NCBI GenBank assembly: GCA_963402885.1
Contig: OY727098.1
Span: 2,165,001 to 2,229,000 of the forward strand
Direction: 5' to 3'
DNA length: 64,000 bases
Source: Antedon bifida
Lineage: Eukaryota; Echinodermata; Crinoidea; Comatulida; Antedonidae
Position 1 is the stretch's first letter; each line of letters starts with the position of its first letter. Shown here piece by piece: positions 47,984 to 62,500 of the stretch. The notes beneath the pieces were generated by a model, which did no database searches, had not been told where the DNA came from, and saw only the letters and a list, made by a program, of their open reading frames with translations. A program made the position numbers and the translations under genes.

Positions 47984-48221
47984 CAAACAGGATAGTAATA
48001 TATACAGTTTAAACATGTAGTGTTGTATTGGTGATGAAGGTAAAAACTATTTAAGATTCGGCTGAGAGTCGGCTGCTGAGGTTGGGGCTTATTTTTACGA
48101 GGGTAAACAGGAAGCTCTAATGTAGTACGGTAGCAGGTTTTATCAACTTTGGCAACATGGATTAATATTACACTACTGAATTTGAATCACTTGATCACAT
48201 GATATTGCTAATTGAATAGGA

Positions 48222-48732
48222 TACACCCACCATCACACAACATACACCCACCATCACACAACATACGCCCACCATCACACAACATACGCCCACCATCACA
48301 CAACATACACCTACATCACACAACATACACTCACCATCACACAACATACGCCCACCATCACACAACATACACCCACCATCACACAACATACACCTACATC
48401 ACACAACATACACTCACCATCACACAACATACACTCACCATCACACAACATACACCCACCATCACACAACATACACTCACCATCACACAACATACGCCCA
48501 TCATCACACAACATACGCCCACCATCACACAACATACACCCACCATCACACAACATACACTCACCATCACACAACATACGCCCATCATCACACAACATAC
48601 GCCCACCATCACACAACATACACCCACCATCACACAACATACACCCACCATCACACAACATACACTCACCATCACACAACATACGCCCATCATCACACAA
48701 CATACACCCACCATCACACAACATACACCCAC
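48222..48732. repeat. 21-bp minisatellite, left part
   Basis: About 24 copies of a 21-bp unit (CATACACCCACCATCACACAA less one base, with variants ACTC, GCCC, ATCATC). 21 is a multiple of three, so it reads as an endless His/Thr/Tyr heptad or, on the other strand, Cys/Val/Met/Gly. That open frame comes from the period and is not evidence of a gene. Confidence 0.97.
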
Positions 48733-48855
48733 TGTTATATCTTATGTGTATATTTATTGCATCTTTCATTGTGTACAACGTATACATACAGATTACCAAC
48801 CATGTGGTTATATCGATCTCCCTTAACCCCTTAGTCTCCCAATCCAGACACTACA
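48733..48855 (-). repeat. 3' LTR
   Basis: 123-bp long terminal repeat starting TGTTATATCTTATGTG on the plus strand and ending GACACTACA; identical to 53339-53461. Very short for an LTR. Confidence 0.95.
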
Positions 48856-49174: not shown

Positions 49175-52100
49175 TTAAAAATCATCAAACCTCTTGGGTT
49201 TTTTCTTCTCTCTTACTGGTCTGCTTTTAACTATCATATTTTCATTACTCTTTGTTATTTTGTCACTTTGCTCAGTATCAACTGGCTTATTCTGTTCAGC
49301 GTCATCAATCTTACTGTTACCATTAACTTTACTAGTATCAATTTGTTTTAAATTATCATTTGGTGTTTTAACATTTGCTTCATTTACTCTTTCATTATAG
49401 GATCGAACATGTGTCGAATTCCTTTTGTATCTTACACCCTGTGGTGATTCAACCACTACACTATTCCCTTTTTTCTCTATTACTACATATGGTTCTGTGT
49501 GATATGGCGTACTCATCTTGTCCCTCTGTGTCACTTTCACTAAAACCTTATCTCCTTTACACACATCACTTTCCTTCGCACCTCTCTTCTCATCAATGTA
49601 CAGTTTGTTCTTTAATTTAGACACGGCATCACGATCAGAAATCTCTTCGTCCATTATTGTATTATCATCTAATTCTGGCAATTTTGTACGCAACTTTCTA
49701 TTCCACATCATTTCTGCTGGTGTCACTCCGGTAACACTATGTGGGGTTGTACGATATGCGAATAGGTACACTCGTAATTCTTTTTTCCAGTCTTTTCCTT
49801 CAGCTTGCGCAATGCGAATTCTTTTCATTAGTGATCTATTTTGTCGTTCAACCTCTCCGTTCGCAGCTGGATGTAATGGTGTTACACGTCTATGTCTGAT
49901 TCCATTTTCCTTCAGGTAGGTTTCAAACTCATTGGACACAAACTGGGCACCATTATCTGAGGTAATTGATTTTGGTATGCCATGTTGAACAAACATATTT
50001 TCAAGTGTGTCTATAATTTTCTCACTTGTGATTGTCTTCATTAAACTAATTTCATAATAACGACTATAATAGTCTACCACCACTAGTACATTATCCTTCG
50101 ATGGAAACGGTCCCAGCAAGTCAATCGAAATATCTTGCCATGGTCCTGTTGGTAGTTGTGTTGGCTTCAATGGTTCTGGTGCTGGCATCGAACTTGTTAT
50201 CTGACACTCATGACATGTTTTAACATAGTCTTCCACATTCTTCTCCATCCCAGGCCACCATACCTTGGTTCTAAGCCGTTGCTTGGTTTTGACTATCCCC
50301 AAGTGTCCTTGGTGTGCTAATTCAATACACTGTAATCTATATTTTTCTGGAATTACAATCCTTCTGTTTCTAAGAATTAAATATCCAAAACATGCAAGTT
50401 CTTGTTGTATTGCATTATACTGAATCAAGTCTCTGTCCCATTTATCTGTCCGTATACTATTTCTCACTTTACTCAATTCAGGATCTTCCTTTGATGCCTC
50501 TTCAACTTCACGTGATGATAGTGCACATGGGGTTGCATTTGATGCTACTAATCGAATATACATCTCTGTGTCATCACTGTCATTATTCTGTTTGCCATCA
50601 GTTTCTATTGGTAACCTTGATAATATATCAGCAATGTTATTCTTACCGGGTACATACTTTACTGTATAAGAATAGGACATAAGTCTCATCACCCACCTTT
50701 CAATCCGTGCATTTGGTTTAGACTTTGGTCCATACAGGCCTTCGAGTGGTTTATGGTCAGTTATCAATTCAAACTGTAGTCCATATAAGTAAACATGAAA
50801 CCTTTCCATAGCCCATACCACTGCCAATGCCTCTTTCTCCGTTGTTGAATATTTTTTTTCAGTAGCTGATAATGTTCGACTTGCATAACTTATAACTCTG
50901 GTTTCACCATTGTATTTCTGAATTAAAACTCCACCAATGCCTACATTGCTTGCATCTGTCACCAACTGAGTACTTTCTGCATCTAATCTGAAATAGCCTA
51001 AACATGTTTCATTAGTTAAGCATTTCGTAAGTTTTACATAACTATTTTCTTGTTCAGACCCCCAATAGAAATTACAATCTTTTCGCACTAGTCGTCTTAA
51101 GGGTTCCGCAACTGTAGCTAAATTTGGAATGTATCGTGCTGAGAAGTTAACTAGACCTAAGAAACTTTTTACTTCTGCAGCTGTTTTTGGTCTCTTTGAT
51201 TCTGCCAATGCTCTGACTCGCCCAATTGTAGGTTTGATTCCATTTGCTGACAATATGTGACCCATGAATGTTATCTGTGATACAGAAAATTGACACTTAT
51301 CCTTGTTGAGAGTCAAATTCTTCTCTTTAAATTTCTCAAGCACTACACGAAGTCTATCATCATGTTCAGTCTGTGTTCTCCCGTGTACAACAATGTCATC
51401 TGATATGTTAGCTACACCTTCGCATCCACTCAGCGTCTGACTGATTACTCTTTGGTACTTTTCAGGGGCAGCATTTATCCCGAACATCAACCTTTTGTAG
51501 CGATAAAGACCTTTGTTAGTTATGAAAGTTGTGATGTTTCGTGATTGCTCATCTAATTCAATTTGGTGATAGCCGTAATTCATGTCTAATTTAGAGAACA
51601 CTGTACTTTGATTCATTTCATACAACACTTCGTCAACTGTTGGGATTGGATGCCTCTCCCTTTTAACTGCTCGGTTGGCCTGCCTCATATCTACGCAGAG
51701 GCGTATATCCCCATTTGGTTTTGGCACTACTATGACTGGACTTACCCAATCACTTGGTTCATCTACCCTTTCAATTATGTCAAGAGATTCTAACTCATCT
51801 AATTTGTCACTCACTTTATCTTTGAGACTAAACGGTATTCTATACATGCTCTGAACAACTGGTGTTACCTGTTTATCAATAAATAAATGTAACTTATAAT
51901 CTTTTAATTTACCAATACCTTCAAATACCTGTGTATACTTATCTTGTACACTATTTATCACTTGTGGTATTACAATATTTAACACTCCAAGCTTCATTGC
52001 AGTATCACCTCCCAACAAAGCAGGACCTTTCCCTTTTAACACATATACATCTGCTGTTATTTTAGGCTCAGTATTATTACCTGTACCTTGAAAAATTGAC

Positions 52101-53242
52101 ATGTTCGTAGTAAATTTTCCTAACAACTCTAATGGTTTTTCTGACCCATATGCATATAACTTTCTGTTTGTCAACTCAGATTTGCATTTAATTTTCTTGG
52201 ATTTTAACTGTTGCCATAAATACTGATCTATGATATTAACTGTAGCACCACTATCAACAATCATTTCTACCTTATGTACATCCATACAAACATTTATCTT
52301 TGTAGTTTTAGAATTATTATTTTGTATACCAAAAGCATAGTCATCGTCTTCACTTCCATTTTGAACATTACTAATATCACTACTCTTTTTGTCTTTACCT
52401 AATTTAGTTTTGCAACAAACAGCAAAATGTCCCAACATTTTACATTTATTACATTTCTTGTCTCTTGCAGGACAACATTTATCCTTAGCCAAATGTCCTT
52501 CTCTTCCACAGCGAAAGCATTTCCGGTTATCTTGTCTATCATTGAACTTTGACTTACTTGTTCTGTTAGTGTTAGGCCTACCACTTGAATTTCCAGCTTG
52601 GTACCTGTTTCTGCTCGTCGTGCTTGATCTTGACCATCTCTCATTCCTCACTGCATTCATGTTCGTTGTTGTTTCCACTCCATTAACTTCTTGTGACATC
52701 TCCTTTGCTTGCTTCTCACTCATTTCAAATGTGCTAGCTATTGCTTTTAAATTAGTTAATTTCAAAGTATTTCCTTTTTCTAGCAATTTTAGTCTCAGTC
52801 TATTTGATTTGCATTTTTCAATAACATGGTCTCTAATTAACTCATCAACATTCGCATCATCAAATTCACATTTTGCAGCCTGCTGCCTCAATCTGTTTAT
52901 AAATTGGTGAATAGTTTCATCATCACCTTGCGTCAGTTTTCTAAAACAATAACGCTCATACGGTACGTTGGTTTTCATAGCAAATTGTTTATTTAATGTG
53001 TTTACAACAACATCATACTCATCTGTTCCGTTCTCCTCCGTTAAACAGTCATATATGTCCTGTACAGCCATTCCGGCGCAATGCAATAACAAAGCTTTCT
53101 TTTGGTTTTTGTCCACTACTCCTTTACCAGTAGCATATAATTCAAAACTGCGAAGCCATTTCTTCCACCGTTCAGCCGAAGCGTGCACATCGTGTGGATC
53201 ATACGCAGCGATTCCCGTGATTTCAACGTTTACAGCGGTCAT
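49175..53242 (-). CDS. Gag-Pol polyprotein of the Ty3/gypsy-type element
   Basis: A single open frame of 1355 aa. In order: a gag capsid region (about 1-200); two zinc knuckles (about 242-278), the first with an unusual spacing before its last Cys; an aspartic protease (VDSGATVNIID, about 329-339); reverse transcriptase (KLDMNYGYHQIEL, active site ISDD in place of the usual YxDD); RNase H (LVTDASNVGIGGVL); integrase with an HHCC finger (LAHQGHLG...CHECQ) and DDE core (SDNGAQF, NGEVERQNRSL). There is no frameshift between gag and pol and no env. No stop or frameshift interrupts the frame. A Mag-like or related Ty3/gypsy lineage is likely, but assigning it needs a tree. Confidence 0.96.
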   Translation of the reverse strand: MTAVNVEITGIAAYDPHDVHASAERWKKWLRSFELYATGKGVVDKNQKKALLLHCAGMAVQDIYDCLTEENGTDEYDVVVNTLNKQFAMKTNVPYERYCFRKLTQGDDETIHQFINRLRQQAAKCEFDDANVDELIRDHVIEKCKSNRLRLKLLEKGNTLKLTNLKAIASTFEMSEKQAKEMSQEVNGVETTTNMNAVRNERWSRSSTTSRNRYQAGNSSGRPNTNRTSKSKFNDRQDNRKCFRCGREGHLAKDKCCPARDKKCNKCKMLGHFAVCCKTKLGKDKKSSDISNVQNGSEDDDYAFGIQNNNSKTTKINVCMDVHKVEMIVDSGATVNIIDQYLWQQLKSKKIKCKSELTNRKLYAYGSEKPLELLGKFTTNMSIFQGTGNNTEPKITADVYVLKGKGPALLGGDTAMKLGVLNIVIPQVINSVQDKYTQVFEGIGKLKDYKLHLFIDKQVTPVVQSMYRIPFSLKDKVSDKLDELESLDIIERVDEPSDWVSPVIVVPKPNGDIRLCVDMRQANRAVKRERHPIPTVDEVLYEMNQSTVFSKLDMNYGYHQIELDEQSRNITTFITNKGLYRYKRLMFGINAAPEKYQRVISQTLSGCEGVANISDDIVVHGRTQTEHDDRLRVVLEKFKEKNLTLNKDKCQFSVSQITFMGHILSANGIKPTIGRVRALAESKRPKTAAEVKSFLGLVNFSARYIPNLATVAEPLRRLVRKDCNFYWGSEQENSYVKLTKCLTNETCLGYFRLDAESTQLVTDASNVGIGGVLIQKYNGETRVISYASRTLSATEKKYSTTEKEALAVVWAMERFHVYLYGLQFELITDHKPLEGLYGPKSKPNARIERWVMRLMSYSYTVKYVPGKNNIADILSRLPIETDGKQNNDSDDTEMYIRLVASNATPCALSSREVEEASKEDPELSKVRNSIRTDKWDRDLIQYNAIQQELACFGYLILRNRRIVIPEKYRLQCIELAHQGHLGIVKTKQRLRTKVWWPGMEKNVEDYVKTCHECQITSSMPAPEPLKPTQLPTGPWQDISIDLLGPFPSKDNVLVVVDYYSRYYEISLMKTITSEKIIDTLENMFVQHGIPKSITSDNGAQFVSNEFETYLKENGIRHRRVTPLHPAANGEVERQNRSLMKRIRIAQAEGKDWKKELRVYLFAYRTTPHSVTGVTPAEMMWNRKLRTKLPELDDNTIMDEEISDRDAVSKLKNKLYIDEKRGAKESDVCKGDKVLVKVTQRDKMSTPYHTEPYVVIEKKGNSVVVESPQGVRYKRNSTHVRSYNERVNEANVKTPNDNLKQIDTSKVNGNSKIDDAEQNKPVDTEQSDKITKSNENMIVKSRPVREKKKPKRFDDF

Positions 53243-53320
53243 CGTTACAACAGTATTAAAACAAATATATCGCCAAAAATAACAGTATTGAAACTTCTAA
53301 TCACTTGTGGTTCGATATTC

Positions 53321-53338: not shown

Positions 53339-53461
53339 TGTTATATCTTATGTGTATATTTATTGCATCTTTCATTGTGTACAACGTATACATACAGATT
53401 ACCAACCATGTGGTTATATCGATCTCCCTTAACCCCTTAGTCTCCCAATCCAGACACTACA
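53339..53461 (-). repeat. 5' LTR
   Basis: 123-bp LTR identical to 48733-48855. As the upstream LTR in element orientation it should carry the element's promoter. Confidence 0.95.
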
Positions 53462-54085
53462 CCCACCATCACACAACATACACCCACCATCACACAACAT
53501 ACACTCACCATCACACAACATACGCCCATCATCACACAACATACGCCCACCATCACACAACATACACTCACCATCACACAACATACGCCCACCATCACAC
53601 AACATACACCCACCATCACACAACATACACCCACCATCACACAACATACACTCACCATCACACAACATACGCCCATCATCACACAACATACGCCCATCAT
53701 CACACAACATACGCCCACCATCACACAACATACACTCACCATCACACAACATACGCCCACCATCACACAACATACGTCCATCATCACACAACATACGCCC
53801 ACCATCACACAACATACACTCACCATCACACAACATACGCCCACCATCACACAACATACACTCACCATCACACAACATACACCCACCATCACACAACATA
53901 CGCCCACCATCACACAACATACACTCACCATCACACAACATACGCCCACCATCACACAACATACACTCACTATCACACAACATACACTCACCATCACACA
54001 ACATACGCCCACCATCACACAACATACACTCACCATCACACAACATACGTCCATCATCACACAACATACGCCCACCATCACACTT
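53462..54085. repeat. 21-bp minisatellite, right part
   Basis: About 29-30 copies of the same 21-bp unit as at 48222-48732, continuing in register after the retrotransposon. Without the insertion and one copy of its target duplication the two parts form one array of about 54 units. Confidence 0.97.
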
Positions 54086-54647
54086 GCTCCTATTCATCCA
54101 ATAATCCATTCTTTCCAAACTCAAACTGTTAAAAGGACTTTGTGTCACATATGTATAACACGTGACACTGTAGTCAGGCCATAAGCATATGATACTTAAT
54201 ATAATAAATGCGTCATGTGATACATATGTGACACTTTATTACAGAATTTGGCAACGATTTTGAACATTTATGCGGAACAACACTCTCAGTCACTCCAACA
54301 CCCTCCACACTCATAATCATCGTATTTCTTCCACTCTCCTCTCCAAAACTCATTTACGCTGGAATGACAAAGGTTATTTGTTTGTAAGAATTGGATCGGT
54401 TGATATCTTATTTAAGCCTAACCATCTAACAACTGCCTTAGTAGGATGTACCCTTTAGTTTTGAAGCTCCGGACTCACAAACTGTTTTATACCTTAGCAC
54501 TACAAGTTTTGCATAGGAAAACCCTGAAATAAAATAATTCCATGCTCGGCTTTCAAACCCCAGACTCAAGACATTTTCTAATCTTAACTTAATTAAATAA
54601 AACAGTGTAGTAATTAAAACAGCTTTACTAAACCAATTAATTATTAA

Positions 54648-56586: not shown

Positions 56587-59500
56587 TCAGCATCTCGTTT
56601 CTGCTTCATCACACTGTTCATCGTTTTGTGAAGTTGCTAAAAATGTGATCCCGTCATCTGTGTCATCTTCTTTTGCGTCAACTTTGACAGGATCAAAGTC
56701 ACTATTTGTCTCGCTACTTGGGGTCGGTATGTTCAATGGCGTCGGACTCCTTTCCGGAAGGTTCACATTGTACATGTTTGTATGATTGATGGCTGGGCTT
56801 AATGATGAGTGAACCTGGTTGTTTGTTGCGCCGTCTGTCATTGTCCAGTATTCAAATGCAAGAGCGCGTGATTGGTCCAGTCTTTCCTGAATGTCTACCT
56901 CTCTTGTGTCGATGTGGTCCGTAATAGTACTGTAAGCTGGAGCTGCCCTGTATGGTGTCGGTTGTCGTATAGAGGTCTTAGTTAACCCCGACTCACTATA
57001 CATAGATAGGTTAGACTCGGATTCTATACGCGAAAGAGCGCCAAGTTTAGAAGGAACTTTCAACTGGATTGGTTCTTCAAAACCCATTTGTCGTTTAATA
57101 GGTCCTGCTTCCGTGTCTGGACTTATTGCCATAGATATCGTGGGTGCAATCATTGTGGCATACTTTTCAAAAGTACTTAAGCGTTGCTGACTTGATTTAA
57201 CCTTCTTCTTTGCTTTTGTCCATATGCTGCTCATTGGTGAGATATCGTCTCTTACAGACGAGACTGGAGTTGCTTCTACCAATGGCTTAAGAGCACGCTC
57301 ACCTTCAAACTCATTCACTTCACTGATTGGTAATTCTAACTTGTCTTTATCAACAGATGTTTTTCTTGTAGAACTGCTTCCTAACGATTCCTGCTTGCTA
57401 TCCATGTTTCCCTTTAATGGTAAAAAACCACCAGAAGGTTCCCAGAGGTATGCCAACGCTTCCTTGGAGGATGCAGTAGACGGTGGTGTAAGGATCGTGT
57501 CCGAAAGAGTCATCCTTCTTTGTATCGTCGGTTTAGTTGGCGAGTCGTCATTAGATCTCTTTTCTGTCTCGCTTATCGAGTCACGGCTCTCGGACATGGA
57601 CATAGCTGTAAGGAGATGTTGCAGATAACGCACACTGTGAACAGTTTGAAAACATACACTCTCCAGAAGGTTCAAACGTGTGTCTAAAGAATTCAAGTTC
57701 ACTTTAATCAAATTCTCTTTTGCAATTATTTCATCTAATTTTAGTTCTACATTTTCAACCCTACAGAAAAAAAAGAAATAAATAAACATGTTTACAATAA
57801 AATGTAATAGCATCAACATTTTTATTGTAAAGTTATAGTAGTATAGTATAGTAAGCGTTTGTGTGAGAAAATTCAGGTCAAATAACCTTGTGCATAGTTA
57901 GGCAGAAGGAAAAGAATTTGCTGCTCGAATATGAAAGTTTGCTACAAAGTGGAATATATATCAATTCTACATAAAACAAAGATAAATTGTCAATGGAAGG
58001 AGGAAAGAAAACGCAAATAGGCTGCTCAGGGGTCACACAGCATTGGTGTAGAAACCTGGAAGGGATCAATAGTGTTTTTTCATTGGATTTTGAAGCCATC
58101 CTTCATGTGGAGTATATATCAGCATCTTGTCTTGTCCTAACATTTACTATGTGTGTGTACACACTGTTAAAATTGTGAATTAAAACCGAGTTAATTCTCA
58201 TGCATGTACACCATTTTACAGTCTATATGATTTAATAATTTGTTGAAAAGACAACAAATTTTTAATATCTAGTATTTATTTTTGTAATTTCAAACTTTTG
58301 TCTATTTTATTTTAAAAGAATAAACATAAAAACATTTTAAAAAACACTACTTACCTTTCGTAAGTAGCATTTAATCTTTGTTCATTTGACGATTTTATTC
58401 TTGCTTCTTTACTGCGAAAATATAGTTCCATACATTCTTCTTCAAAATCATTTAAAAGCTGTATGTCTTCATCCGGTAAAAACAGCTCTAGGGGTAGGAG
58501 ACAAATTAAATTATTTATTTCAACAATATTTTACATAGATATCTACAATAGTCAGGGGTGAATATGAACTACTTTTTGATATAGGATATGTAGTCTAGTT
58601 GTAGCTTAGTTGTTAACATCCTTGCCTTCCTATTCAAAAGTCCAGTATTCAATCCTGACCTAGTGCCAGGGTTCAATCTTGACCTAGTGCCAGGGTTGTA
58701 TTTTATGACTCTTTCAACTCAAATGGGACTTAGTTTACAAGCATGATATATTTTATCTATCCTATAATTGTTGCTCACTATTGGATGACTATTAATATTA
58801 TATGTTAGTACTCCTATCCTACATCAGCTCCCTGATGGTTCAGAAATAAAAGCATGGTTTGCACAAGCGTGTTGTATTAACACAGTGGAATATATAGTAA
58901 ATATAATAACCTTACTTAGTCCTTTGTCCCGACTTGGACGTGTGTCTCTACAACAGCAGCGAAGTAAAGTTCTCAAAAACAGGAACACATGTTGAAGAAT
59001 TACAAATGGTGGCACTAAGATTGACTTTTGTTCATACTCCATGATAAGACGATACCGTTGAAACTTCCACACTACATCAGATATGTTTCGAATTCTTGCA
59101 TAAGTGTTACTGAATGAAATAATTAGTAGTAGTATAAATTAAATCTTGTACCTGTTTGATCAGTTAAAATGAATAACTTAGGTAGTCATACAGATATGTA
59201 TTGGAACATCTTAGGGAGTTCAAACATGCTTTTTTTTTCTTTTTGGACCCAACACAATTTTTTTTGCTATATTATCAATGATCACCAAATGAGAAATCAT
59301 TATATTTTGTAATAACCTGCAACACGGTCTTCAAACAAACTATAAAAAAACGGTTTTAGAGTTTTAAATTAGAAACACTAACTGCTTATTTATAACTGGA
59401 TTAATTTACTAGGCGTAAATTCATTCAAACCTACTGTACATTTACTCGTCTATAACAATAATAACTGGGTCCGCGAAGTAAAGTCTCATGAAGGCCTGAC

Positions 59501-62500
59501 AATACATATATGTATAATATCTAGTTTAACAAATTTGCAAAAAACAAAACTTACTTAAAAGTTGCAATAAGAAGATTAATAAGTAGAATATTAGCTACAA
59601 TACAGTACAATGCCATAGCAGAAGGAACAACCCAATGACCAGGTACACACTTGGATGGATCTGGTTCATCTCCACAAGCTGTACAAATAACAAGTAATTC
59701 GTTTCGTTTCTTTTCCATTCATTAAAAAGCAAACATACACATACAGTGTATAATATGGAAGGATTTCACAGTAAGTTAATTGAACTCTAAGTCATGACCC
59801 CAGTATCAGTATAATATATTTACTGTACATGAGCAGTTATTTTATGTGGTCTAAAAAAAGATTTTAAGACATTTAAATCATAATATAGTCAAGTCTACTC
59901 TCCCAAAATCAACACCCTTTGGCTGGTTAAAATGCATAGAAATTTTCCATTCAGAATTTAACATGATTTTCACATGAATATGGTGGAAGACATGATCTTC
60001 TTTATCTCAGGGAAATTCCAATATAGTTTTCCTTGATATATTTTGCCAAGTACTTCACTCAGTTTCTGAGTGCTTTTATTTTTACAGAAACTGAGTGAAG
60101 TACTATATTAGAATTTACCAAAGCGCTTTGCATAATGCACTATAGAAGCCCCCATTCTTATTACTATTTTTTTTTAACCAATTAGAACTTACGATTAATA
60201 TCAGGTGCATAAACTTCTCCATAAATCATCCAATAGGGTTCATGGAAGATATTACGTAGCATTGCCCAACTTGGTTCCATGTTTTGATGTGTGATGGACT
60301 GTCGAACTACTCCAAAACTCAGCATAATCAACAGTAAAAGGACAATGAAGTAAGCCATATCACGCATCTGAAATATAGAGTACACAAAACAGAAGATTAA
60401 TTTTATTGAATTGAAGTCAGACAAAGAAATATTGAGAATTTTAAGCTGTCTATGTTGCCTTAACTAAAGTAGAACTCTTATTAGACACTTTCGGGACTCA
60501 ATAAAGTGTCTCCCTTAATAAGGGTGTCCCCTGAATAGGTGTTGGCTGTGTTAAAATATGTTTCCCCTATTTCATTTCACAAGGAAGTTTCCCTTTATTA
60601 GGGGTGTCTTCTGAATAGTTTGGCTTATTTCCTTTCACAAGAAAGTGTCCCCTTAATAGAGGTTTCCCTTGAATAGGTGTTGGCTATAGTGTTCATAAAA
60701 GTTTCACCTATTTCATGTAACAAGAAAGTGTCCCCTTAAAAAATGTGTCCTGAAGAAGGGGTTGTACTGATTTTTAAAACTCTTGCTTACCATTTTACCC
60801 ATCATTGTTACAAAGGGCCCAAGATAGATATTAATACTTAGAATATCTAAAAACTTGAGATACCAGAAGACGACATCAGCAGAGTAGATGACTCGACCAA
60901 CTTGGAGCGTTGGCTCATTCATACGAAATCCAAAGCCCAATAAGAATAGCAGTATAGCTACAGAATCGTGGATGTTCCAATAGTCTTCATACCAAACCTC
61001 AACCTTCTGGATTACTTTACTAGGCTCAGATGTAACAAACTAATCAGATAAAAAACAATTCATTATTTAGTATTTTAAATACAAATACACAAACTAACAG
61101 TGGTGTTGGCTGTCTATGCATGAGATACCTGTATAGACTACAATTGCAATTATTCCCAAATCTTGGGTGTCCATATTTAAGAATAATGACATATGTAGAG
61201 TCAATACAAGTAAAGCTTTGTCTACACTATTAAACTTTATGTGACAAAAAAATGTGATGATGTCATATCACTACCATACTTATTTGGGGAATATCACTAC
61301 CATATTTGGGCATATCACACTTTTTTTGTCAAACTAGTTTTATAGTGTAGACAGAGCTTAAGAATCTCATGATTGATTTATTTGGAAAAAATATTTTGAA
61401 AAAAATTTATTTCGTTTAAGGGATATTGACAAAACTATTCTATTCAGTTCCTGCAGTAACTGCATTTTGTTTACTGCACTACTGAACAATTTTGTTCAAC
61501 AAGTTGATTTCAATGTAAAAGTTTAGTTTTTTCACAGTTTATCAGATTATCCAAAAAAATGTTAAGGAGTTAAAAATAGAGTAGTAGAATAATTGTGACA
61601 TCATCACATTTTTTTGTCACATAAAGTTTAATAGTGTAGACAAAGCTTTACTTGTATTGACTCTACATATGTCATTATTCTTAAATATGGACACCCAAGA
61701 TTTGGGAATAATTGCAATTGTAGTCTATACAGGTATCTCATGCATAGACAGCCAACACCACTGTTAGTTTGTGTATTTGTATTTAAAATTGGTGCAGTTG
61801 AAGTTTGTTTTCAAATATGATTATTTGTGGTCATTTGTTTTTTAAATATGCGACAAGGAGAATTAACTGCTAATAGCTTACCTCTCTGATTTGTTCAGCA
61901 GCGAATGTAACAATATAGAGGACCACAATCCATTCATATAATGAAGGCTTGACTGGTGTTGGTATCAATACAATGTAACTATACAACCCCATAAACAGAA
62001 TGAACGTAAGCTGAGGAAAAACAAAAAATAAAAATATGTTAAGCTCACAAATACATACACTAGTTTTATTTTATTTTTATTTTATATCTTTAGGCTATGT
62101 GGCCAAGGATTACCAATAGTAAATTAATCACTGTCCTATCAGATAGGTGGTAATCCCCCTGATACAAGGGCTATTTTTAGTTTGACAAAAAAAGTGTGAT
62201 GTGTCCAAATATGGTCGTGATATGCCCAAATATGGTAGTGATATGACATCATCATGTTCATATATGGGCACATGATTTTGTGTCGCATAAAGTTTAATAG
62301 TGTAGACAGAGCTTAAGTGTTGAGAACCCCTCCTTGGGAAAAATCACTACTTTGAAACACCTATATTCAGGAGACAATCCTATTAAGGGGATGATACAGC
62401 CCCATTAAGAGATTTCATGAAATGAACGAGGGGTAATGGACAACCACTATTGAGGGAACCACCTCTATATTAAGGGAAGAGTTTGTTGTGTCCAGGGTTT

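Follow-up and report, generated by a model that had tools for sequence, protein, structure and literature searches.

Several described processes leave an inverted copy of a DNA segment close to its source. In the four-point model of short-range template switching, a nearby reverse-complement copy yields a perfect hairpin in one step (PMC7954356, PMC8794818); copied pieces in the great-ape set have a median of 12 bp and reach at most 128 bp (PMC7954356). Human fold-back duplications combine a source, an unduplicated spacer and an inverted copy. They carry 2-8 bp of inverted microhomology (13 junctions) and are part of large terminal rearrangements whose spacers measure 766-70,466 bp (PMC3907307). 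Templated inverted insertions at yeast breaks, which are local inverted copies adjoining their source, are mostly about 5-34 bp long (PMC11724301). The inverted pieces of small inverted triplications have a median of 160 bp and come with a flanking direct duplication (PMC13334657). Introns can also contain MITE foldbacks, in which the hairpin-forming sequence is that of the transposon.

The hairpin described here lies in a TRPM intron of Antedon bifida. It resembles a short-range template switch in being a nearby reverse-complement copy, but its 194 bp exceed the maximum of 128 bp cited for the ape set (PMC7954356). With the fold-back duplications it shares the order of source, unduplicated spacer and inverted copy, and it would share about 2 bp of inverted microhomology at the inner junction if no target was lost; it differs in its dimensions (194 bp with a 330-bp spacer) and in that the sequence switches back to its original strand (PMC3907307). 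The yeast insertions differ from it in size (PMC11724301), while the inverted triplications have pieces of similar size but include a direct duplication of the source, which is not seen here (PMC13334657). By the standards of these classes, 194 bp is long for some and normal for another. Like an intronic MITE foldback, the hairpin places transposon sequence able to pair within an intron; here, however, pieces of two elements pair with their own later copy.

The window, that is, the whole 64-kb stretch of DNA analyzed (C11:2165001-2229000), lies on a contig of 28.2 Mb in an assembly of 315.6 Mb and 27 contigs. The features at the locus, numbered from the first base of the window, are as follows.

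61882..62010, minus strand: upstream TRPM exon (ends from sequence and translation)
61040..61881, minus strand: TRPM intron, 842 bp, GTAAGC...AG (from sequence and spliced translation against TRPM3)
60791..61039, minus strand: downstream TRPM exon (ends from sequence and translation)
61065..61072, minus strand: likely branch site, TACTAAAT, whose branch A (61067) lies 27 nt from the acceptor G (from sequence)
61072..61265, plus strand: arm 1, the probable source copy (B end plus the left 52 bp of MITE A)
61072..61085, plus strand: 14 bp of arm 1 past the usual B terminus, as judged from where B copies end
61086..61212, plus strand: family B copy, an older repeat, with its terminus TACACAAAC... 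at 61086 (at least 60 further genome pieces)
61214..61358, plus strand: MITE A, 145 bp, with TAA at 61211-61213 and 61359-61361
61406..61525, no strand assigned: third dispersed repeat, in the spacer (at least 30 other genome matches)
61596..61789, minus strand: arm 2, the inverted copy of arm 1 (from complementarity and 16 differences common to both arms)

The two arms are complementary at 194/194 positions (100%) with a spacing of 330 nt, and a genome search places them at C11:2226072-2226265 and C11:2226596-2226789. A perfect match of 194 bases is far beyond chance expectation. Identity of 100% is unique to this pair among the eight inverted pairs no more than 3 kb apart in the window (blastn, E<=1e-8). 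No third copy of the arm was found in the 64 kb, and the right flank, 61790-61881, matches only itself within the window. When the exons are joined (62010-61882 to 61039-60791), their spliced translation aligns with TRPM3 at E 6.5e-35, without a gap at the splice junction; another exon region, 56587-57897, matches the TRPM tetramerization domain (E 8.9e-8). A protein search with the TRPM tail yielded 3622 candidates, of which none reached E<=0.001. The sequence, the assembly places and the TRPM3 alignment together bear out the initial annotation's perfect 194-bp inverted repeat with a 330-bp spacer in an 842-bp TRPM intron. The neighboring TRPM intron holds degenerate direct repeats of ~36-62 nt at 60512-60750, spaced 58-83 nt apart, and a 12-mer of these also occurs in arm 1.

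The stretch consists mostly of stacked repeats: B, then A, then the third repeat. The 137 bp of arm 1 that precede the MITE (61072-61208), used as a genome query, gave 62 matches from 35/35 scored candidates, namely the two arms and 60 pieces elsewhere at 77-91% identity, many of which are parts of one copy; like all repeat copy counts given here, this is a lower bound. The best match outside the arms covers query positions 6-137 at 77% identity. The family terminus ...GTTTGTGTA, located here at 61086, is the end of the common sequence in 16/16 copies displayed. In four B copies, large or short (L071, L072, L074 and L075), similarity continues past 61086 to 61073-61067; this extension is AT-rich, and we take it, short of proof, to be target sequence rather than element. 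Three large copies (L069, L070 and L071) align piecewise over up to about 4.7 kb, and one of them, L070, carries 148-bp inverted ends (97%), with more inverted pieces nearby. Within the arm, the B segment has a foldback character of its own: 61126-61159 and 61165-61212 correspond to the same stretches of B in opposite orientations. The 139 bp initially annotated as unrelated flanking intron therefore belong mostly to family B (61086-61212), a dispersed repeat of the same genome, and the host sequence supposedly carried along shrinks to about 14 bp per arm beyond B's usual end.

MITE A is short, is present in high copy and has terminal inverted repeats and a target duplication, the features of a MITE. 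A first look at the genome gave at least 4227 candidates, the best others among the 40 scored having 90% identity. The initial annotation had placed the complete MITE inside the spacer, but the element straddles the boundary, the left 52 of its 145 bp belonging to arm 1 and the other 93 to the spacer. It sits within B or at B's edge, with its TAA duplication. When its flanks were joined and used as a query, which omitted one base (61362), nearly all B matches ended at 61212, the insertion point; one short L076 match crosses the junction by 8 query bases (43 columns, E 4.7e-5). By eye, the bases after MITE A agree with a B variant at 9/11 positions. Four MITE end strings had no match in the literature text searched, and one MITE string had 0 matches in viral contigs.

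Two further observations concern mobile elements in the window. Oppositely oriented MITE A copies, 61213-61336 and 62178-62314 (78% alike), bracket the TRPM exon 61882-62010; they could pair in the pre-mRNA and favor circularization of the exon. Farther away, a long minus-strand open frame in the region of 48212-48826, 49175-53296 and 53433-54132 resembles, by eye, a Ty3-type polyprotein, with short tandem arrays of one kind on both sides.

Differences from the families bear on how the arms are related. The B copy in the arm departs from the family majority at 8/74 and 6/48 sites and the MITE A end at 2/51, the majorities having been built from loci brought in by search, not from a random sample; these loci overlap, so that some copies are counted twice among the 61, 36 and 22 hits, and hits covering <60-80% of the query piece were left out. 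All 16 differences are common to both arms, and the arms differ from each other at 0/194 positions, which bounds their divergence at about 1.5%. The 16 common differences and the absence of any between the arms indicate that arm 2 was copied from arm 1 after both insertions. Arm 1 is taken as the source, since it alone adjoins an entire MITE A. Two independent insertions in opposite orientation were rejected as an origin of the arms; they would not share 16 differences.

The junctions bear on how the copy was made. Of the four breakpoints, 0/4 coincide with an element end identified in this locus: 61072 lies 14 bp beyond B, 61265 cuts into MITE A after its first 52 bp, and no element end was found at 61595 or 61790. 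A comparison of 61063-61071 with 61790-61798 revealed no target duplication. A second copy of the whole arm was not found either, the only full-length matches to the 61072-61208 query being the two arms (35/35 candidates scored); the whole-genome search, in which 40 of 1202 candidates were scored, turned up no further copy of the unit, and no empty copy lacking arm 2 was found among the own-genome matches. The absence of breakpoints at element ends, of a target duplication and of a second copy speaks for a strand switch, either as a fold-back of the growing end or as a templated insertion at a break. Inverted microhomology amounts to 2 bp (CA/TG) at the inner junction, provided that no target was lost, and to 0 bp at the return junction.

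The locus is probably the product of one recent inverted duplication of already nested repeats, most simply through fold-back or strand template switching; the event is reconstructed from one assembly. In the order of steps that we infer, B would have inserted in the TRPM intron long ago, followed by MITE A, in or beside B's inner end, with duplication of TAA. Later, during replication of the stretch or repair of a break near 61595/61790, the growing end may have crossed to the other strand at 61265 and copied 194 bases back to 61072. Its return to its own strand at 61790 would then have left a perfect hairpin around a loop of 330 bp.

Mobile elements offer two other origins. One takes the 718-bp unit to be a transposon of the foldback type whose terminal repeats are 194 bp long; this would account for their length and perfection and recalls some B copies whose inverted ends are long (L070, 148 bp at 97%). 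The unit is nevertheless single among the candidates scored in both searches (35/35, and 40 of 1202), has no target duplication between 61063-61071 and 61790-61798, and its arms cut MITE A in mid-element, so that this origin is extremely improbable. The arms as terminal repeats of one transposon were accordingly rejected, given the lack of further copies among the scored candidates and of a target duplication. The initial annotation's view of an inverted duplication rather than a simple transposon foldback agrees with the searches, which revealed neither a second arm copy among the scored matches nor a target duplication, and with the lack of clear homology beyond the edges. It had offered template switching or aborted transposition as the mechanism, and only the former fits. 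Aborted transposition of MITE A or B has in its favor the two mobile elements at the spot, but none of the breakpoints (0/4) matches an identified element end, and MITE A carries TAA on both sides; it is an exceedingly doubtful source of the copy.

Gene conversion between close inverted repeats is known, and an old inverted repeat whose arms were kept identical in this way would fit 0/194 differences equally well. Conversion tracts are, however, expected to end inside larger homology. Past the inner edges no degenerate homology is detected, the alignment of the flanks being no better than that of simple base shuffles (39% of 500 reach its score), and past the outer edges the score is only borderline (27/500 shuffles, 5.4%). 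An old, converted repeat is unlikely. The perfect identity of the arms could also point to an assembly artefact, with one arm absent from the animal. Yet the locus has two clean junctions, where a fold-back read chimera would have one, and the gene continues in order on both sides within a 28.2-Mb contig, which makes an artefact quite improbable.

A recent inverted duplication by strand switch, the preferred reading, would have consequences for the transcript. The predicted minimum-energy fold of the intron has -401.3 kcal/mol, with 194/194 arm pairs in register, as against -146.9 when arm 2 is removed; the full duplex proposed for the transcript at the outset is present in this prediction. 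Just outside the arm duplex lies a TACTAA motif, which we take to be the likely branch point with its A at 61067, and which is unpaired in the predicted fold. On paper, omitting the hairpin shortens the path between donor and branch point from 814 nt to 96 nt. In the pre-mRNA the arms would pair over 194 bp, and with the copy stopping just short of the likely branch point, splicing could continue. The predicted fold shows only that the splice signals are left alone by the hairpin. Rfam gave 0 matches in 60700-62400 at the gathering score.

By default, and not as a result, the duplex is regarded as neutral, perhaps with some editing or dicing; the involvement of Dicer, ADAR or splicing control suggested in the initial annotation would be a possible effect. 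It is very unlikely that the duplex serves as a young endogenous hairpin RNA, spliced from a channel gene and diced into small RNAs that bear end sequence of MITE A and B and are directed against the many other copies of both families. If that were true, one template switch would amount to the birth of a transposon-silencing locus. The locus also carries a practical lesson: sequence adjacent to a transposon calls for a genome-wide search before being named unique host sequence. More broadly, it presents a case in which one copying error would have produced, within a transcribed gene, a long and perfect hairpin from remnants of nested transposons, in one step and with the splice signals untouched. 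Loci of this kind may feed the emergence of new hairpin RNAs, and the present one appears recent enough that its presence, absence and effect could be checked in living animals.
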